Assembly: GCA_022482815.1 (NCBI GenBank)
Contig: JAKVOM010000001.1
Coordinates: forward strand, 248,001-312,000
Direction of reading: 5' to 3'
DNA length: 64,000 bases
DNA from: Acidaminococcus sp.
GTDB taxonomy: Bacteria > Bacillota > Negativicutes > Acidaminococcales > Acidaminococcaceae
In this document: piece after piece, positions 41,421-54,343 of the stretch
Position numbering within the stretch: position 1 is the stretch's first letter
How the letters are laid out: the number at the start of each line of letters is the position of its first letter
Program-made: the position numbers and the translations under genes
The notes under the pieces: generated by a model
The model's input: only the letters and a program-made list of their open reading frames with translations
Told to the model about the DNA's origin: nothing
Databases searched by the model: none

Positions 41421-42062
41421 TCAGAACCCAAGGTTTTCGTTCACCAGAATCACCTTAATGCGTCCCTTCTCACGGGAATAGCGCGTGATGAGAAGGTTGC
41501 AGCAGAGCGTATCAGGGGATTTACAGTCAGCGCAGGCACCATTTACTTTACACGGGGTCTTGATATGAGGAAAATGCTGTGCATTAATAGGTGCGGCCAC
41601 GTTCCGCGTCCTGAGGACGGCGTGTTCCAGGTTCTTCGTAACTTTGTTCATACCCACAATCATGAGAACCGTCTTGGGACCGTAGGCAATGCAGGACACA
41701 CGGTTGGAATTGCCGTCCATATTCACCAGGATGCCATCTTCCGTAATGGCATTGGTACTCGACAGGAATGTATCGCAGCTATGGGCTTTCAGCATCATTT
41801 CCCGTTTTTCTTCCGGAGTTTTCTTCGTAAACGGATTAAAGACCGTATAGTGGCCGTGGACAAGAACGTCTTTCAAACCGATTTCCTCAACAGAATGAGT
41901 TCCGCCCCAGCTGACACTCGACCCCTGCGGAATGAGATCCAGCGCAAGGCCCAGTGCCTCTTCCTTTGTCTCGACAAAATAGCCTTCCATATTGCGGCTT
42001 CTGAGGCCCGCAATGACTTTTTGAGCAACCTTCCGGTTGCGTTCTTTTTCTTCCGGCAGCAT
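41421..42062 (-). CDS. LUD-domain protein (LutC/DUF162 type)
   Basis: 213 aa. The LUD fold is shown by SSVSWGGTHSVEEIGL, VFNPFTKKTPEEK, FLSSTNAITEDGILVNMDGNSNRVS and GPKTVLMIVGMNKV. The C-terminus has the Cys motif CKVNGACADCKSPDTLC found in Clostridial relatives. LUD proteins are implicated in lactate oxidation; this single-domain form without LutA/LutB has no certain role. Last gene of the TRAP operon (71 bp after dctM), under the T-box. AGGAGG precedes the start. Confidence 0.87.
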   Translation of the reverse strand: MLPEEKERNRKVAQKVIAGLRSRNMEGYFVETKEEALGLALDLIPQGSSVSWGGTHSVEEIGLKDVLVHGHYTVFNPFTKKTPEEKREMMLKAHSCDTFLSSTNAITEDGILVNMDGNSNRVSCIAYGPKTVLMIVGMNKVTKNLEHAVLRTRNVAAPINAQHFPHIKTPCKVNGACADCKSPDTLCCNLLITRYSREKGRIKVILVNENLGF

Positions 42063-42133: not shown

Positions 42134-43411
42134 CTACTTCACGATGCTGGGAAGCCAGGTTGCCAGTTCCGGGAAGAAGCAAATCACAAGGATTCCCAGA
42201 GCCATGACGCAGATATACGGGATAACCCCGCGGATGATATCTTCCATCCGGCTGTCAGGGCTTACGCCTTTGAGGACAAAGAGGTTCATGCCGACAGGAG
42301 GCGTGATAAGAGCCATTTCCATGTTAATCTGCATCACAACGTTGAACCAGATGGGATCAAACCCCAGCTGTTTGATGACCGGGTACAGAATAGGAACGGT
42401 AATAAAGATAATGGAAACCGTTTCGAGGATGCACCCCAAAAAGAGAAGCAGGATATTGATCAGGAGGAAGAATACCCAGCGGCTTACATCCACTTCTGTC
42501 ACCATCGTCGTGAGGGCCTGCGGAACCTGAAGGATGGTAAGGACGAAGCCGAACAGAGAGGCTCCGACCATAATGGCAAAGATCATGGCCGAAGTTCCGA
42601 CGGTATCCATGAGGATTCCCGGAAGGTCGCGGAAGCTCAGGGTCCGGTAAATTACAAAAGTAATGAAAAGGGAATAAACCGTCCCTACAGCAGCCGCTTC
42701 AGTCGGCGTAAAGGCGCCTGTATAAATACCGCCCACAACAAGAATCGGAAGGAAAAGGCCCCAAATGGATGACCTGAGGGCCTTCATGCGTTCCTTGAAA
42801 GGTGCCTTGGGCTGAAGAGCCAGATGTTTCGATTGGTGCACCACAATGATAATGAAGAAAAGAGTCATCAAAACGCCGGGGATGACGCCGCTCATGAACA
42901 ACTGCCCAATGGATTCTCCCGTAATGGAGCCGTAGAGAATCATCGGAATCGAAGGCGGAATAAGGATGCCCAGCGTCCCGCCGCCGGCGACTGCACCAAG
43001 AACGACAGAGCGGTCATAGCCGCGCTTCAGCATTTCCGGAATTGCCATGGCCCCAATCGTGACCGCACAGGCCACACTGGATCCTGTAATAGCAGCAAAG
43101 ATGCCGCAGGCAACAATCGTTGCAATACCGAGACCGCCGGGAAGGTGACCGAGCCACTTATTGCCGAGTTCAAAGAGGTCGGAGCCTACATGTCCCTTGA
43201 GCAGAATGGCACTCATGAGGATGTAGAGCGGCACGGCACACAGCACGAAATCATCCAGTGCCTTATAAGCAAGGATTGGAATCTGTTCCAGGACGCCGTC
43301 GCCGGGCATAAAGAGCAGCATGCCCAGAAGGCCTGATGCTCCGAGGGAAAAGGCCACAGGAACACCGATGGCAAGAAGGATCAGCAAGGCAAGTGTAAAA
43401 AGAATAATCAT
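42134..43411 (-). CDS. dctM: TRAP transporter large permease subunit DctM
   Basis: 425 aa, about 12 transmembrane segments, normal length. Typical stretches: GVPVAFSLGASGLLG at the start, LGILIPPSIPMILYG, GAFTPTEAAAVGTVY and NMEMALITPPVGMNLFVLKG. It is the channel-forming subunit that uses a Na+ gradient to take up solute delivered by DctP. Overlaps dctQ by 4 nt (ATGA). Confidence 0.95.
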   Translation of the reverse strand: MIILFTLALLILLAIGVPVAFSLGASGLLGMLLFMPGDGVLEQIPILAYKALDDFVLCAVPLYILMSAILLKGHVGSDLFELGNKWLGHLPGGLGIATIVACGIFAAITGSSVACAVTIGAMAIPEMLKRGYDRSVVLGAVAGGGTLGILIPPSIPMILYGSITGESIGQLFMSGVIPGVLMTLFFIIIVVHQSKHLALQPKAPFKERMKALRSSIWGLFLPILVVGGIYTGAFTPTEAAAVGTVYSLFITFVIYRTLSFRDLPGILMDTVGTSAMIFAIMVGASLFGFVLTILQVPQALTTMVTEVDVSRWVFFLLINILLLFLGCILETVSIIFITVPILYPVIKQLGFDPIWFNVVMQINMEMALITPPVGMNLFVLKGVSPDSRMEDIIRGVIPYICVMALGILVICFFPELATWLPSIVK

Positions 43412-43926
43412 GCGGCCGCTCCTCCTTTCTTTTCACCATGGGATGCAAGAGCCTGCACATTTTCTATCAGCATCCGGACAAACTGCAGGAGCAGGACAAT
43501 CGTCCCGACCGGCAGGGATAACTGCGGAATCCACAGCGGCATGCGCAGGGTACTGGCAGCGAGCATATCCAGGTCGTAAGACATGTACGCCATTTCAGCC
43601 GACTTCCAGCAAAAAATGACAGTAAATATAATGCAAATGATGCAGGATACAATGCGCAGAATGATGTTCGTGCGCTCTGACAAATGGGAAATGACCATAT
43701 CGACATGGATGTGGCGGCCCTTGGCAAGGGCCGTCCCCATCCCCAGAAATCCTGCCATGAGAACACAATAGGTCGAAATTTCCGTCGCCCACTCTGTGGG
43801 TTGATTAAAGACCCCACGAGAAATGACTTCATAGAAAATCGCAAACACGGGAATAAAGAGAAGGATACCCGCCATAATGCCCGTGATGCGCGTTATGACG
43901 TCAAGGAAACGATTAAATGCTTTCAT
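43408..43926 (-). CDS. dctQ: TRAP transporter small permease subunit DctQ
   Basis: 172 aa, four transmembrane segments, with the family stretches NQPTEWATEISTYCVLMAGFLG and ALAKGRHIHVDM. Partner of DctM in the membrane. Gap of 15 bp from dctP. GGCGAGG precedes the start. Confidence 0.92.
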   Translation of the reverse strand: MKAFNRFLDVITRITGIMAGILLFIPVFAIFYEVISRGVFNQPTEWATEISTYCVLMAGFLGMGTALAKGRHIHVDMVISHLSERTNIILRIVSCIICIIFTVIFCWKSAEMAYMSYDLDMLAASTLRMPLWIPQLSLPVGTIVLLLQFVRMLIENVQALASHGEKKGGAAA

Positions 43927-43941
43927 GAACCTCGCCTTCCC

Positions 43942-44976
43942 TCATGCATTAGCAGCCATATCCAGAACCTTCTTACCGATTTCGCCGGTATGTTTCAGGA
44001 ACGTATCCCATACGGATTTCGTCGCGTCACGCCAAGCCTGAAGCTCAGCTTCCGGGACCACATAGACTTCCATGCCCTTTGCCTTCAGATCATTGAGGCC
44101 CTTTTCATCCATGGCCTTTGCATTTTTACGGATTTCGTCCCGGACTTCATTGGCTGCTTCCATGAAGGCCTTCTGCTGGTTGGCGTTCATCTTTTTGAAA
44201 GAACGGTCATTCATAGCCAGGATAAATTCAGGCGATGCATGATTCGTAATGGTCAGGTACTTGGCAACCTCATAGATTTTGCGGTCACGCATAGCGCTGG
44301 TACCGGAACTTTGTCCGTCAATCGTACCGCGCTGCAGAGCCATATAGACTTCACCGGAGCCCATCGTTACCGGGGAAGCGCCCAGTGCCTTGATGGTTTC
44401 CGAGGAAAGTTCGCTATAACCGCGCATCTTCAGGCCTTCAAAATCTTTCGGGGTCTTGATGGGTTTCTTATTGTTGGCAAACTGTACAAAACCGTAGTCT
44501 GCCCAATAAACAACCTTCACGTGCTTCTTTGCCAGTTCATCGGCCAGAATCTTGCCCATACCGCCGTCGATGGCACGGTCAATCTTCGCATAGTCCGGGA
44601 AAACAAAAGGCACATCAAAAACTTCCATGGCCGGAACAACCGTGGCCCAACGTCCTACCGTGTTGAGACCCATATCGACGCCGCCCGTCATGATGGCATC
44701 GTTCATACTCTTATCGTTATAAAGCTGGCCTGCCGGATACGCCGTGATAGACACTTCACCGTTGGTCTTATCCTTTACTTTCTGGATAAAAGAATCCACA
44801 CTCTTGGCAAGGGGATGATCGGCCGGTAAATGGTAGGCGAGCTTGTACTCAATTTTTCCGCCCTTTCCCGCGGATCCCGTATCCTTCGCTTCCTTCTTAC
44901 CGCAGCCGGCAGATACCACCATAATGGAGGCCATGCAGGCAGTGAGCACCATCTTCATGAATTTCCCTTTTTTCAT
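43942..44976 (-). CDS. dctP: TRAP transporter solute-binding lipoprotein DctP
   Basis: 344 aa. Start at 44976 after GAGGAGG; the longer frame upstream runs through the T-box leader and is not coding. Lipobox VVSAGC (residues about 20-25) anchors it. The DctP fold shows KLAYHLPADHPLAKSVDSF, FQGxMRGYSEL-type core (GLKMRGYSELSSE) with the substrate-gripping Arg, and ALQRGTIDGQSSG. The solute is not known; T-box control suggests that it is an amino acid, a derivative, or a linked compound. Confidence 0.93.
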   Translation of the reverse strand: MKKGKFMKMVLTACMASIMVVSAGCGKKEAKDTGSAGKGGKIEYKLAYHLPADHPLAKSVDSFIQKVKDKTNGEVSITAYPAGQLYNDKSMNDAIMTGGVDMGLNTVGRWATVVPAMEVFDVPFVFPDYAKIDRAIDGGMGKILADELAKKHVKVVYWADYGFVQFANNKKPIKTPKDFEGLKMRGYSELSSETIKALGASPVTMGSGEVYMALQRGTIDGQSSGTSAMRDRKIYEVAKYLTITNHASPEFILAMNDRSFKKMNANQQKAFMEAANEVRDEIRKNAKAMDEKGLNDLKAKGMEVYVVPEAELQAWRDATKSVWDTFLKHTGEIGKKVLDMAANA

Positions 44977-45040: not shown

Positions 45041-45273
45041 TCAGGTATTAAAAACGCCCCTGCTGGATTTCTTCCAGCAGGGGCGACGGTTCGCGGTACC
45101 ACCCTACCATTGTACTCTTGGCCTTGTAACGCATCCACAGCGCCTTGCCCTAGGGACTCATGTCTTTCAGGTAAGGGGTTCGCAGGCGAGAAGCACGAAT
45201 TATTGGTCGCACCGTCTCACACCCACCGACGGCTCTCTGAGTTCCCTCTTTCGCGCTATTCCTGGTCATTACC
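45041..45273 (-). promoter_or_regulatory. T-box riboswitch upstream of the TRAP-LUD operon (specifier probably CCC, proline)
   Basis: On the minus strand the leader opens at 45273 with GGTAA pairing to TTACC (45170-45174). Stem I shows AGAGAG, a distal CCGTC/GACGG stem with GGTGGGTG loop, and the GAA motif (45179-45181) directly followed by CCC (45176-45178), the expected specifier position. The T-box AGGGTGGTACCGCG lies at 45092-45105, with TGGT fitting a tRNA ending ACCA. A terminator (45055-45085, CGCCCCTGCTGG / CCAGCAGGGGCG, then TTTTT) follows. The conserved elements are certain; the specifier is read by eye and could be off. Confidence 0.9.
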
Positions 45274-45302
45274 TTTAAATTTTGAAATTTGATATTGGGA
45301 CA

Positions 45303-45330
45303 ATTATAACATGCTTTTCTTCATTGTCAA
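45303..45330 (-). promoter_or_regulatory. Promoter of the T-box-TRAP operon
   Basis: TTGACA (45325-45330) and TATAAT (45303-45308), both perfect consensus, 16-bp spacer; transcription would start about 25 bp before stem I. Confidence 0.88.
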
Positions 45331-45414: not shown

Positions 45415-45695
45415 CATGAGAGAGTGGTTAGTTTGTAGCGGTTAGTACAATCGTCTGAGCAAGCTGTGGCGCTTCGCGCAAAAAAATGCTGTGACGCTGT
45501 GGCCGCCCAGGGCGGCGAAAGAAAAAAGCTATCCTCCCCCACTTCGTGGTTCTTCCTCCTTTCGAAGCCGCGAAGCGGCTTGAAAGGAGGTCCTAGAGGA
45601 ATTCCAAACCTTACGGTTTGGCTTAATTAAGGCGGCTTGAAAGGAGGTCGCGATAGGGGCTGGTACCCTAATTGGAGATTTGACTTGGCTTGAGT
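45415..45695. repeat. Degenerate composite intergenic repeat with M9 module
   Basis: C-module (AGAGAGTGGTTAGTTTGTAG, GGTTAGTACAATCGTCTGAG), then M9 (CTTCGTGGTTCTTCCTCCTT, GCCGCGAAGCGGC, GAAAGGAGGTCCTAGAGG, CCAAACCTTACGGTTTGG) and GGTCGCGATAGGGGCTGGTA, the last two shared with 12179-12260 and 3910-3945. Confidence 0.65.
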
Positions 45696-48659: not shown

Positions 48660-49886
48660 TCAATTCTCTCTGAAGGTTCCTTCACTCTTGGAAACCATAA
48701 CCGCTGTAGCAGCATCACCCATAATGTTAGGAACAACACGGCCCATATTCAGGATACGGTCGATGCCTGCCAAAAGGCCGATAGCTTCCATAGGAAGATT
48801 GACCGATGAAAGAACGATAGTCAGCATCACGAGACCGGAGCCAGGAATACCGGCAGTCCCGATAGATGCCAGGGTTCCCGACAGCATAATCATGATCTGC
48901 TGCGTAAAAGTAAGATCCACTCCGAAAATCTGTGCCGTAAATACAACGGCTACGGCTTCATAGATAGCGGTCCCGTTCATATTCATGACGGCCCCGAAAG
49001 GAATGACGAAGTTAGCAGTTTCTTCATCAACACCCAGTCTCTTGACACCTTCCAGGTTCAGCGGAATTGTCGCTACACTGGAGCACGTCGCGAAAACAAA
49101 GGTCATAGCCTCTTTCATGGTCTTTAAGAACTTCACCGGGGACACATGCGACATAACGCCTACCATCAGCCCGGCCTGTACAACAATCAGGTAGAACAAG
49201 GAGCAGATATAGAGTGCCGCAATCGTCTTAAGATACGGAATCAAGATTGCCGTTCCGTTCTTCCCTACGACCGTCGCCATAAGGCCAAGGACACCATAGG
49301 GCGTGAATTCGAGCACGATGTTAGTAATTTCCTTCATCGCTTCCTGACCGCTGCGGCAGAACTCAAGAACAGCCTTTCCTTTATCGCCTATCTTGAGAAG
49401 TGCAAATCCCAGGAAGAGGGAGAAGAAAATGATCTGCAGCAAGTTCATCTTTGCCAGCGATTCAAAGACGTTCTTCGGAATAATATTGAGCAGCGTATTA
49501 ATGAACGATACATTCTCCACGGTCTTAGGTTTGGCTGCGGTAGAAATATCGACAAGAGAAACGCCGGACCCGATATTCATGACGTTCGAAACAACAAGAC
49601 CCAGCACGATAGCAACGGCGGTACTTACCAGAAAGATAATGACTGTCTTGACGCCGATTCGTCCCAATCTCTTTCCGTCACCTACATCGGCCGCTGCACA
49701 GACGAGCAGCGTAAAGACGAGGGGTGCCACAACCATCGTAAGAAGTTTCGTCAAGATAGTTCCAAGAGGTGCAAGCACTGCTGCTTCAGGGCCCATGACC
49801 AGCCCCAGCAAAATACCCACAACAAAGCCTATCATAATGCGGGTAAACAGGCTCAGGCGATTCCAAGGTTTAAAGAAGAATCCCAT
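48660..49886 (-). CDS. Dicarboxylate/amino acid:cation symporter (DAACS, GltP-like)
   Basis: 408 aa. Family motifs: TKLLTMVVAPLVF, the serine-rich hairpin CSSVATIPLN, NMNGTAIYEAVAVVF, the second hairpin TAGIPGSG, and the substrate-binding helix GIDRILNMGRVVPNIMGD. The family imports glutamate, aspartate, C4-dicarboxylates or serine/threonine. It is 18 bp downstream of a UxaA-type dehydratase, so it probably imports that enzyme's substrate, an acidic hydroxy acid. Confidence 0.93.
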   Translation of the reverse strand: MGFFFKPWNRLSLFTRIMIGFVVGILLGLVMGPEAAVLAPLGTILTKLLTMVVAPLVFTLLVCAAADVGDGKRLGRIGVKTVIIFLVSTAVAIVLGLVVSNVMNIGSGVSLVDISTAAKPKTVENVSFINTLLNIIPKNVFESLAKMNLLQIIFFSLFLGFALLKIGDKGKAVLEFCRSGQEAMKEITNIVLEFTPYGVLGLMATVVGKNGTAILIPYLKTIAALYICSLFYLIVVQAGLMVGVMSHVSPVKFLKTMKEAMTFVFATCSSVATIPLNLEGVKRLGVDEETANFVIPFGAVMNMNGTAIYEAVAVVFTAQIFGVDLTFTQQIMIMLSGTLASIGTAGIPGSGLVMLTIVLSSVNLPMEAIGLLAGIDRILNMGRVVPNIMGDAATAVMVSKSEGTFREN

Positions 49887-49904
49887 GATTTTCGCTTCCT
49901 TTCC

Positions 49905-51065
49905 TCACACAAAACGGCAGATATGATCTACTGCAATGTCAGAGAATCCATAAATCTCCGCTTTTGTCATTTTCCCATTGCAGACATCTTTCATTTCTTC
50001 AAGCAGCTCTTTCCCACATTCCTTAAAGGTTTTCGTACCTTTGATAATGGGGCTCAAGTCAAAGTCCATATTGTCTTCCATCCGGCGATACGTATTTTCA
50101 TTGGCAGTCACCTTATAGACAGGAGCAATGGCGTTGCCTGTCGGGGTTCCCCGCCCCGTCGTAAAGATAACAGCGCTGCATCCGGCAGCCACCATGGAAG
50201 TGACGGAAGAAATATCATACCCTGCCGTATCCATGACGATAGCCCCCGTCTTGGACGGTTTTACGGCCTGGTCCAGTACCTCCACAATAGGACGTGTTCC
50301 GCCCTTCCGGATACAGCCGAGACTTTTCTCATCGATTGTAGAAAGGCCGCCGGCCTTATTGCCGGGTGTCGGCTGGCCTGCGCGGCAGTCCTGTCCGGCC
50401 AGTTTCAGATGCTCTTCGTACCGTTCGCAAATGCGGATGATGGCGTTGTGAAGAGCCGGGGAAGCGGCGCGCTTGGCGAGTACGTGTTCGCCCCCGATCC
50501 ATTCAATGGATTCACTCATAATCGTGGAAGCACCTAAATCGACGAGCAGGTCACTCAGTTCACCTACGGCCGGGTTACTGGCAATGCCGGACGTCGCATC
50601 CGATCCGCCGCACTCGATGCCAAGGAGAAGATTGGAGATATCCACCAGTTCACGCTGCTGCAGCGAAGCGTCCATTACCATTTTCCGAGCGGCACGGATG
50701 GCTTTTTCAGCAGTTTTAACGGTTCCGCCTTCTTCCTGAATTCCATAGGAAACTACCGGTTTACTGGTCATCTTCTTGATTTTGTCCCGCAGCGCGGCAT
50801 GACCTACGGTCTCACAGCCCAGCCCGATGATGACCACGCCATAGACATTCGGATTCGTCGCAAATCCCGTCAGGATTCTCTGCGACATCTCCGTATTGGC
50901 AGCCACATCAGAGCAGCCCGTATTGAATATGATATTTTTGGTTCCCTTTACCTGGCTCGAAACCACCCGGCACGTCTCACTGGCACAGGCACAAGTCGGC
51001 AGAATCAGAACATGATTTCTGATTCCCGCTCTTCCTTCCGGTCTCTTATAGCCCCAAATCTGCAT
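49905..51065 (-). CDS. UxaA-family dehydratase/lyase large subunit
   Basis: 386 aa. Start at 51065 after AAGGAGG. It contains GRAGIRNHVLILPTCACASE, FNTGCSDVAAN, GLGCETVGH, IECGGSDATSGIASNPAVG and IFTTGRGTPTGNAIAPVYKVTAN, all conserved in altronate/galactarate dehydratases and in (2R)-sulfolactate sulfo-lyase large subunit. Partnered with the SAF-domain gene 13 bp upstream. Enzymes of this two-gene type remove water or sulfite from hydroxy acids. Substrate undetermined. Confidence 0.88.
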   Translation of the reverse strand: MQIWGYKRPEGRAGIRNHVLILPTCACASETCRVVSSQVKGTKNIIFNTGCSDVAANTEMSQRILTGFATNPNVYGVVIIGLGCETVGHAALRDKIKKMTSKPVVSYGIQEEGGTVKTAEKAIRAARKMVMDASLQQRELVDISNLLLGIECGGSDATSGIASNPAVGELSDLLVDLGASTIMSESIEWIGGEHVLAKRAASPALHNAIIRICERYEEHLKLAGQDCRAGQPTPGNKAGGLSTIDEKSLGCIRKGGTRPIVEVLDQAVKPSKTGAIVMDTAGYDISSVTSMVAAGCSAVIFTTGRGTPTGNAIAPVYKVTANENTYRRMEDNMDFDLSPIIKGTKTFKECGKELLEEMKDVCNGKMTKAEIYGFSDIAVDHICRFV

Positions 51066-51078
51066 GATTCCTTCCTCC

Positions 51079-51378
51079 TTATTCCTTGACCAGTTCACTT
51101 TCGTAATCACGGGGCACGCTGTAAATATTTTTATCGGAAACCCAGTGCCCCGCCTCAATCGGACATGTCGTCCTTCCAATCATTTCGCCGTACTTCAGGA
51201 CAACATCGCCTTTTTCCAAATTGCAAAGTGCAATCTTATGGCAAAAAGGAATAGCCTCCTCCGCTGTTATGGATTTCAAGGTATCCCCATCCATATAGCT
51301 GACAAGTTCGCCCGCAGCAACAGCAGCTACGCAGGTAACGACGTTATCTTTGGCATCCATCAGCAATGCGTTGATCAT
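51079..51378 (-). CDS. UxaA-family small subunit (SAF domain)
   Basis: 99 aa, a single SAF domain: MINALLMDAKDNVVTCVAAV, AIPFCHKIALCNLEKGDVVLKYGEMIGR, typical of the altronate dehydratase N-terminal part, here as a separate gene. Start at 51378 rests on AGGAG about 12 nt upstream; a longer start at 51420 is possible. Divergent from LysR at 51497. Confidence 0.87.
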   Translation of the reverse strand: MINALLMDAKDNVVTCVAAVAAGELVSYMDGDTLKSITAEEAIPFCHKIALCNLEKGDVVLKYGEMIGRTTCPIEAGHWVSDKNIYSVPRDYESELVKE

Positions 51379-51496
51379 TTTGTATCGCGCTCCTATTTGA
51401 ATTTTCTGTATGTTCATCATATAATAGGGCTACAGTAAAAACAATTTATGTTTATTAAAAGCTTATTAAATATTTTTTAATTAGGAAGGAACAGTT

Positions 51497-52438
51497 ATGC
51501 AGGCAGATGACAAATATATCCTTGAAATTTATCGAAAGGGAACATTGTCGGCAGCAGCGGATGCGCTCTACATGACCTCTCCTGCCCTTTGCATTTCTCT
51601 TCATAAAATAGAAAAAAGACTGGGCGTTCCCCTGTTCACCCGGACGCCCCATAAAATGATTCCTACAGAAGCCGGCAAAGAATATATCGGCATGTTAGAG
51701 GACATTGAGATGAGGGAACGCAATTTTACCCGTTATCTGGAGGACGTCAAACACCTGGAAACAGGAGAACTGATCATTGGCGGGACCCATTATATCAATG
51801 CCTATATTCTTCCTGATGTCCTTACCCGGTACAGTCAGCAGTATCCTCACATCCGTATTACCATCTATGAGAAAAGTGCCAAGCATCTGGAAGAAGATCT
51901 TTTAAAGCAAAAGATTGACGTGACACTGAGCTGTGATGAAAAAATCGTCCATACTATCAAAAGTTCTCCTGCTTTTACTGACCATATCCTGATAGGAGTC
52001 CCGCAGGAACATCCCATCAACAATGAGCTGCATCCGTTTGCCCTGTCCGCCGGTGATATCGCTGCTGGACGCCATATGGAAGACGACTGCCCCAGCCTTC
52101 CGATTTCCCGATTTAAGGATCTTGAATTTATCATGCTTTCCGAAGGGAATAACCTCCATGACCGTGCCTACGAATTGTTTCATCAGGCCGAACTGAATCC
52201 GAAAGTAAAACTTGAGATTTCCCAGATGATTACAGCTTTACATTTGGCAGAGCATGGATTTGCTGCCACCTTCATCAGCGACCGAAGCATCTCTCCCCAT
52301 TGTCCCCTCCGCTTTTATAAAATCGACTCTGACATCGCAGTTCGTCAATTTTACCTGATTACAGGAACCAAACCGTATCTTCCCTTTGCTCTGCGGCGCT
52401 TTATGGACTTTTTCCCGCTCTCATCGAAAATGAGCTGA
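51497..52438 (+). CDS. LysR-family transcriptional regulator
   Basis: 313 aa. Helix-turn-helix GTLSAAADALYMTSPALCISLH at residues 15-36 (split here for length by its two helices), then an effector domain with an inserted acidic stretch. AAGGAA precedes the ATG. Divergent from the SAF-UxaA-DAACS operon, its presumed target. The spacer 51379-51496 is AT-rich with a TATAAT at about 51421. Confidence 0.87.
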   Translation: MQADDKYILEIYRKGTLSAAADALYMTSPALCISLHKIEKRLGVPLFTRTPHKMIPTEAGKEYIGMLEDIEMRERNFTRYLEDVKHLETGELIIGGTHYINAYILPDVLTRYSQQYPHIRITIYEKSAKHLEEDLLKQKIDVTLSCDEKIVHTIKSSPAFTDHILIGVPQEHPINNELHPFALSAGDIAAGRHMEDDCPSLPISRFKDLEFIMLSEGNNLHDRAYELFHQAELNPKVKLEISQMITALHLAEHGFAATFISDRSISPHCPLRFYKIDSDIAVRQFYLITGTKPYLPFALRRFMDFFPLSSKMS

Positions 52439-52499
52439 TACTTGCTAAAAGATAAATAAGGAAATCAAGACGAACTTATCTTGCTGAGTCTCAAGCCAC

Positions 52500-52725
52500 A
52501 ATTTTCCTTTTCGCTGTTCGGTCGCTGGCCGCGAGCCGCCCGTGGAAGAAAAATTGTCAGGGCATTTTTCTACGAACTTATAAAAATAAAACCTAAGATT
52601 TAGGTTAAGTGCTAAATCTTAGGTTTTTATTATTTTATTTGAATCAAAAGTCTTACCACACTGCTGCAAACGAGGCTAAATGCTATAAGCCAAAGGCGCT
52701 TTTTTATTTTTTCGCAGTCCCTTTC
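52500..52725 (-). repeat. Composite intergenic repeat, copy R9 (minus orientation), compensated palindrome
   Basis: D inverted (TCGGTCGCTGGCCGCGAGCC near 52514), TACGAACTTATAAAAATAAA, palindrome A (52588-52627) whose arms read AAAACCTAAGATTTAG and CTAAATCTTAGGTTTT: three changed bases are mirrored in the other arm, keeping all 16 pairs. Then tail inverted (CACTGCTGCAAACGAGGCTA) and B (AAAGGCGCTTTTTTA). No gene in 52439-52759. Confidence 0.85.
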
Positions 52726-52759
52726 GCTGTCCGTTGAAGCAGATATCCTTGTGCGCACT

Positions 52760-53953
52760 TTATTTTGCATACAGCCCGTCCCAAACGATACGGCGGTAAT
52801 TTTCTCTATCCGTATCCCCTTCCGTATTAAAGAAGAGAATCTTGGAATTCTCGTCGAGCTCCAGTGCTTCCTTAAATTCCTTGAGTTCGGGATTCCTCAA
52901 AATTTCGCTCACGGCGCCAAAGGCAGCCGCACCGCTTTCACCGGAAATAATTTTCTGATCGTGTCCCATAGGATTACCCAAAATTCTCATTCCCTGGGCC
53001 GCCGCATAGTCCGGACAGGAGATGAAGAAATCTGCATAATCCGAAAGCACCTGCCACCCGATACTGCACGGCTCACCGCAGGCAAGACCAGCCATGATGG
53101 TGCGCATATGCCCCTTTACCGAATGGAGCTTTCCATCATTTGCCTTTGCGGTACGATAGAGGCAGTCGGCCTGATCAGGCTCCACAATGCCGATGATCGG
53201 TTTTTCGTCACCATAAATGGAGGAAAACAGCCCCGTAATGGCACCTGCCAAAGATCCAACACCAGCCTGGATGAAGATATGGGTCGGTTTTTCAGGCAGC
53301 TGCTCATACGCTTCAATTCCCATCGTTCCGTATCCCTGCATAATCCAGCGGGGAATTTCTTCATATCCTTCCCAAGCTGTATCCTGAACCATGACCCAGC
53401 CATTTTCTTTCGCCTTGCGGTTTGCCAGACGAACGGCATCGTCGTAATTCATGTCTGTAATCGTGGCATCTGCCCCTTCCGCACGAATATTCATGAGGCG
53501 TTCCTGTTTAGATCCTTCCGGCATATAGACTACAGCATGCTGATGCAGCTGCCGGGCCGTCCATGCCACGCCTCGTCCGTGATTGCCGTCTGTTGCGGTC
53601 ACAAAGGTGATATCACCCAGCAGTTTGCGGGTTTCATCGCTCGTCAGTCTGGCATAAGTCGCGTCCTTTATATCGATGCCGAGCCGGTCGGCCAGGTAAT
53701 GCCCCATTGCATAGCTGCCGCCCAGAACTTTAAAAGCGTTGAGGCCAAAGCGATAGGACTCATCCTTCACATACATGGACGAAATACCCAGTGCACGGGC
53801 CGTATCTTTTAAAGAAACAAGCGGCGTTTCCTTGTAAACGGGGAAGGTTCGATGGTATCTGAGGACCTTCTCTTCCACATCTTTGCTGAGAAAATCCAAA
53901 CTGCATTTTTGGCCTTCATGATTCCTGTGAACCATGTGGAAATCTCTTTTCAT
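52760..53953 (-). CDS. ygeX: Diaminopropionate ammonia-lyase
   Basis: 397 aa PLP enzyme of fold type II. The PLP-lysine motif is RFGLNAFKVLGGSYA (about residues 60-75), followed by TATDGNHGRGVAWTAR and a Gly-rich phosphate cup (GVGSLAGAITG). It converts 2,3-diaminopropionate to pyruvate and two ammonia. Start at 53953 after GGGAGGAG. Monocistronic; the usual ygeW/ygeY partners are not adjacent. Fits amino-acid fermentation. Confidence 0.92.
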   Translation of the reverse strand: MKRDFHMVHRNHEGQKCSLDFLSKDVEEKVLRYHRTFPVYKETPLVSLKDTARALGISSMYVKDESYRFGLNAFKVLGGSYAMGHYLADRLGIDIKDATYARLTSDETRKLLGDITFVTATDGNHGRGVAWTARQLHQHAVVYMPEGSKQERLMNIRAEGADATITDMNYDDAVRLANRKAKENGWVMVQDTAWEGYEEIPRWIMQGYGTMGIEAYEQLPEKPTHIFIQAGVGSLAGAITGLFSSIYGDEKPIIGIVEPDQADCLYRTAKANDGKLHSVKGHMRTIMAGLACGEPCSIGWQVLSDYADFFISCPDYAAAQGMRILGNPMGHDQKIISGESGAAAFGAVSEILRNPELKEFKEALELDENSKILFFNTEGDTDRENYRRIVWDGLYAK

Positions 53954-54343
53954 AAGTTCATCTCCTCCCATATTTTTCGATACGTCTGGCATACAAAAGC
54001 CATGCCAATTTTTATAAATCCATTATTTTTTATCCGACTTCGGATTCTGGAACTTGCTTAAGACAATAAATCTTCCGAATGCTCCCACGTACTTTGTTAT
54101 ATGCTATTTCATTTTTACAAAAATTGCAAAGAGGGAAAACAGCGCCTGCAAACGCCTCATTTTTCTACTTCATTACAAATCTTTTCCTATTTTCCAAATA
54201 CTCTTTCCGTTGTCAGCAAATAAGAAGCCCTTGCAAAATCCTAGTTAATTCATATGTTATCTGGATAATTAGCAAAATTTATCTTATTTTTACAATTTTC
54301 CTCCATTTTTCTCAAATTTACATACTTTTTCTCTTATGCGTGA

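Follow-up and report, generated by a model that had tools for sequence, protein, structure and literature searches.

A leucine T-box leader precedes a dctPQM TRAP transporter operon in Acidaminococcus and related Negativicutes

The window, i.e., the whole 64-kb stretch of Acidaminococcus sp. DNA that was analysed, carries on its minus strand the three consecutive genes of a TRAP transporter. Pfam matches identify the receptor gene dctP (43942-44976; PF03480, 4.6e-81), the small membrane subunit gene dctQ (43408-43926; PF04290, 9.2e-29) and the large membrane subunit gene dctM (42134-43411; PF06808, 2.8e-112), the last of which overlaps dctQ by 4 nt and also scores above the cut-off of TIGR00786. 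The dctP product is a TRAP solute-binding protein with a lipoprotein-like signal, and its ATG at 44976 has a Shine-Dalgarno sequence just upstream. A gene for a LUD-domain protein (41421-42062, minus strand; PF02589, 7.3e-45) lies 71 nt past dctM. All four assignments agree with an earlier sequence-only reading of this DNA, which had also placed the LUD gene under the same control as the transporter. Its membership of the operon is uncertain. The gap between dctM and the LUD gene carries a TATAAT-like -10 element, and the gene may have its own promoter; among the neighbourhoods inspected, this genome and one other of the same genus (G003) alone have LUD next to dctM.

Two further features of the window were recorded. 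The intergenic region at 45430-45690, upstream of the promoter described below, contains GC-rich palindromes (AAGCCGCGAAGCGGCTTGAAAGGAGG; the 26-mer occurs once in the window). The stretch at 48660-53992 holds a cluster of genes for a diaminopropionate ammonia-lyase, a galactarate/altronate dehydratase-like pair and a dicarboxylate/glutamate symporter, along with a divergent regulator-like gene.

The leader upstream of dctP is a genuine T-box, extending on the minus strand from Stem I at 45278 to the terminator at 45050. It is preceded by a sigma-70-type promoter (45330-45303, minus strand), in which TTGACA and TATAAT, separated by 16 nt, match the consensus at 12 of 12 positions, with a TG before the -10 hexamer (extended -10). 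Stem I shows its specifier loop together with the AG bulge and the apical loop: the lower helix under the specifier loop pairs CAGG (45264-45261) with CCUG (45186-45183), and the apical hairpin with its AG-bulge region (CAGAGA...GGGUGUGA) occupies 45239-45212. Downstream lie the T-box sequence AGGGTGGTACCGCG (45105-45092), an exact match and the single exact copy in the 64-kb window, and a predicted intrinsic terminator with a 13-bp stem and U5 (45085-45050), which competes with the antiterminator. The two structures are mutually exclusive, as CGCCCCU has two possible pairing partners, AGGG...GCG in the T-box and the 3' arm of the terminator. Promoter, Stem I landmarks, T-box sequence and overlapping terminator had all been proposed from the sequence beforehand, and each was recovered here.

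A covariance-model search with RF00230 yielded a full-length match at 45278-45076 (model positions 1-219) with 77.7 bits and an E-value of 4e-17, although this score falls under the gathering score of 93. Hence, a default Rfam scan of the 64-kb window reports a tRNA and nothing else. Two further T-boxes of the same genome, upstream of a trpE-like gene and of glyQ, likewise lie under the threshold. Folding of 45045-45280 gave a z-score of -2.8. The low Rfam score is probably explained in part by an atypical specifier loop: the loop-E pair AGUA/GAA is absent from the dctP leader, which has AAUA on the 5' side and CUU on the 3' side. Among 30 aligned dctP leaders, AGUA is found in one (L153), the 5' loop being otherwise usually AAUA or AAUG. 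Most T-boxes of the genome have AGUA/GAA, yet the thrS T-box does not, and the motif is therefore better regarded as typical than as defining.

The specifier was read with a positional rule, in which it is the triplet that a single base separates from the covarying lower helix following it. In the Rfam alignment this gives CUC (45190-45188, minus strand), a leucine codon, followed by a G and then by the CCUG of the lower helix. The default register of TBDB corresponds to the same specifier position (PMC7778990). The rule was checked on 15 other T-boxes of the same genome (17 were found in total), with gene names assigned from the downstream protein sequences. It read UUC for pheS, AUC for ilvC, ilvD and ileS, CUG for leuA, AUG for metA, GUC for valS, ACC for thrS, UCC for serA and UGG for trpE. 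The automatic rule missed one case, that of a metY-like gene, for which the Rfam alignment reads AUG.

The sequence-only reading had instead taken CCC (45178-45176) as specifier, implying a T-box read by tRNA-Pro and a transporter that may import proline or a relative. In favour of such a reading are the GAA-like context directly before CCC, and a tRNA-Pro(GGG) in the genome whose ACCA end would place A73 opposite the UGGU bulge. The T-box model, however, assigns the specifier to CUC: GAA and CCC (45180-45176) lie outside the specifier loop, the triplet coming after both the lower helix and GCGAA at the Stem I base, in the linker that follows the 3' base of Stem I. It also varies among orthologues (CCC, CUC, UUC, UUU and others). 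Given its position and this comparison, the proline reading was rejected, and we consider it hardly credible.

A register shifted by one or two bases, which would read UUC or UCU for phenylalanine or serine, was also considered, since GUGCUUCUCG is pyrimidine-rich and the missing loop-E landmarks leave the register less certain than usual. Nevertheless, the neighbouring frames are inconsistent across orthologues, giving mixtures of Ser, Pro and Ala or of Ser and Trp, and the changes from CUC to CUG observed among relatives are synonymous solely in the chosen register. For serine in particular, the serA T-box has UGGC, as suits a serine tRNA with G73; the dctP leader has UGGU instead. A shift of this kind is thus very unlikely.

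With the leucine codon CUC at the specifier position, a matching tRNA-Leu(GAG) is found in the genome at C1:2831056, as checked on extracted stretches of the genome. It ends in ACCA (A73) and matches the UGGU bulge. Given that the proline tRNA of the genome ends in ACCA as well, the discriminator alone cannot separate leucine from proline; they are separated by position and conservation.

Close DctP orthologues number 21 in 61 related genomes, all belonging to the family of the window's organism, and 18 of them have a T-box motif upstream. In a scan of named genomes, which covered 65 dctP loci, a T-box was found before dctP in 42, of which 41 were detected by motif, while the one in Schwartzia was missed by the regular expression and recovered with Rfam. 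Two further matches of the regular expression (L170 and L173) were removed as they are not T-boxes. The hosts include Acidaminococcus, Succiniclasticum, Phascolarctobacterium, Schwartzia, Sporomusa and uncultured relatives; no T-box was detected at the Selenomonas and Mitsuokella dctP loci among the 65 scanned. A leucine codon occupies the specifier in all 42 cases (40 read by the helix rule and two, L162 and L188, by eye), with 39 CUC and three CUG (L137, L138 and L174).

The alignment of 30 leaders contains 28 CUC and two CUG specifiers, and UGGUACC in 30 of 30. The lower helix occurs as CAGG/CCUG, UGGG/CCCA, CGGG/CCCG, CGGA/UCCG and other variants, with 100% of its cells paired and changes on both sides in three of its four pairs, and all six pairs of the apical hairpin covary. 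Over lower helix, apical hairpin and terminator together, 98.7% of cells are paired and 15 pairs present both-sided changes, with a covariation score of 0.548 against 0.06-0.15 for slid partners and no equal in 500 shuffles; the cells count related sequences, and these figures are accordingly not probabilities. The pairing of a leucine T-box with dctP is thus supported as conserved in about 40 other genomes.

Taken with this conservation, the anatomy, specifier and tRNA computed above favour a leucine T-box controlling dctPQM, a reading to which we assign a probability of roughly 88%, a figure that does not extend to any one substrate. Switching in the cell and its direction are inferred: the leader would act as a transcription-terminating riboswitch for tRNA-Leu(GAG). 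Under leucine shortage, the GAG anticodon of uncharged tRNA-Leu would pair with the CUC specifier of Stem I, and the ACCA end of this tRNA with the UGGU bulge, favouring the antiterminator over the 13-bp terminator and allowing transcription of dctPQM; with tRNA-Leu charged, the terminator would form. The TRAP system would then import either leucine itself or, with greater likelihood, a branched-chain acid from which leucine can be made.

The closest known counterpart is the leucine T-box of the B. subtilis ilv-leu operon, whose specifier, in the work of Marta et al. from 1996, is reportedly CUC. Both have Stem I, the same specifier position and codon, a UGGN bulge and competing antiterminator and terminator; in contrast, the dctP leader has no AGUA/GAA loop-E, and its target is a TRAP transporter rather than biosynthesis. 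In the available part of Wels et al. 2008 (PMC2494555), the transporter families regulated by T-boxes are ABC, APC, DAACS, LIVCS, MFS, NHAC and NSS. The specifier is used there, as here, for substrate inference, but no TRAP system is among those described in that part. A full-text literature search found no T-box-controlled TRAP transporter, although TBDB may list some of the leaders, nor did it return anything apparently relevant tying a T-box to a dicarboxylate or a TRAP system to isopropylmalate. The mechanism is an ordinary one, while the target is unusual, conserved and not described in the T-box literature searchable here.

Because the same leucine switch precedes the same transporter in about 40 relatives, the data suggest the transporter imports leucine or something convertible to it. 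The earlier expectation that a T-box before a TRAP system points to import of an amino acid or one of its precursors is supported, with leucine in place of proline. From regulation and context, 4-methyl-2-oxopentanoate, 2-hydroxyisocaproate or a dicarboxylate of the isopropylmalate type are the candidate substrates. A precedent for the binding of a branched 2-oxo acid by a TRAP receptor is TakP, the alpha-keto-acid receptor of Rhodobacter sphaeroides, for which 4-methyl-2-oxovalerate is a ligand, though a weaker one than the straight-chain 2-oxo acids (PMC1839085); the parallel is one of ligand rather than of demonstrated sequence kinship.

Assigning the ligand from structure was also attempted and set aside. 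The DctP model has a mean pLDDT of 86, and its best structural match is 4p47 (Z = 36.8), but many DctP receptors with differing ligands match with Z between 31 and 37, i.e., a strong fold match with no ligand discrimination. In this clade DGQ[ST]SG stands in place of the DGQEN seen in the closest solved receptors that were aligned, so the ligand is not inferable from these.

A second leucine T-box, with specifier CUG, occurs in this genome and in a related one (G001), where it precedes a gene for a protein that, among solved structures, is closest to L-2-hydroxyisocaproate dehydrogenase. In the present genome (L006/L213; G000:C1:2903704-2904653, minus strand) the dehydrogenase-like gene is shortened and has a transposase gene just downstream, while the frame in G001 is longer. 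2-hydroxyisocaproate dehydrogenase connects 2-hydroxyisocaproate with the keto acid of leucine, and this T-box links leucine sensing to 2-hydroxy and 2-oxo acids.

TRAP receptors mostly have organic acids as ligands, which counts against leucine itself as the substrate. The lyase co-regulated in many genomes (see below) and the 2-hydroxyacid-type dehydrogenase also point to an organic acid. Import of leucine would nonetheless be the simplest reading of a transporter behind a leucine T-box, and T-box specificity has served before to assign the substrates of amino-acid transporters, as in the available part of PMC2494555; we regard it as a serious possibility, albeit one held at well under even odds. 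A branched-chain acid is favoured over leucine, without certainty, because leucine-tRNA control, the upstream lyase and the hydroxyisocaproate-dehydrogenase-like gene behind a leucine T-box coincide.

Another explanation is that dctPQM is a main catabolic transporter, e.g., for succinate, and its leucine control incidental. Several hosts, namely Succiniclasticum, Schwartzia and Phascolarctobacterium, are succinate users, and DctP belongs to the C4-dicarboxylate superfamily. Yet leucine specificity is kept across several Negativicutes families while the neighbouring genes change, and one would not expect abundant leucine to switch off a transporter that serves mainly catabolism. These considerations make the explanation improbable.

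Such import would not substitute for a missing pathway, given that the window's genome carries genes of the LeuA and LeuB types, the LeuA-type gene behind its own leucine T-box. The idea that transporter and lyase replace a missing LeuA found no support either: all but a few genomes of the family have near-full-length LeuA-like matches, albeit with scores under the curated cut-off.

In 20 of the 65 dctP loci, an isocitrate-lyase-family protein with the motif KRCGH or KCGH is encoded just upstream of dctP, in nearly all of them between the T-box and dctP; the window's own operon has no lyase gene. The best solved relative of this upstream lyase is the petal death protein (1zlp, 254 bits), and the KRCGH motif is common to that protein, 2,3-dimethylmalate lyase and methylisocitrate lyase. 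Against the PrpB equivalog for methylisocitrate lyase it scores 288 bits, below the cut-off of 354. No T-box motif was found upstream of homologues about 50% identical to it outside the operon (L120-L127). In two of these loci (L124 and L125) the lyase lies beside a PrpF-like gene and may be of the dimethylmalate type.

A more speculative proposal, which we hold as doubtful, is that the leucine T-box of these Negativicutes runs a salvage route, in which a branched acid imported by the TRAP system would be turned into a leucine precursor with the help of the lyase. For example, isovalerate and glyoxylate might be joined into 3-isopropylmalate, or the lyase might act on a 2-isopropylmalate-type acid. 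If true, leucine synthesis would have a novel point of entry.

The analysis points to a role connected with leucine for a TRAP transporter of gut and rumen bacteria, and in relatives for a so far unassigned lyase. It also narrows the substrate to a short list suited to a binding assay, which the proline prediction would have misdirected.

Two other T-box arrangements were observed in the same genome. The glyQ T-box (L017/L201; G000:C1:126733-126902, minus strand) has an ultrashort Stem I of about 35 nt with no apical AG-bulge hairpin, an apparent GGC specifier, a UGGA bulge and a transcription terminator. To our knowledge, ultrashort Stem I is known only from actinobacterial translational ileS T-boxes. 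Nine genomes from the genus to which the window belongs share the glyQ form, and so does G019. Lastly, a MetN-like ABC transporter gene has two tandem cysteine T-boxes upstream (L009 and L010; G000:C1:184477-185101, minus strand), both with UGC and UGGA and spaced by about 190 nt.
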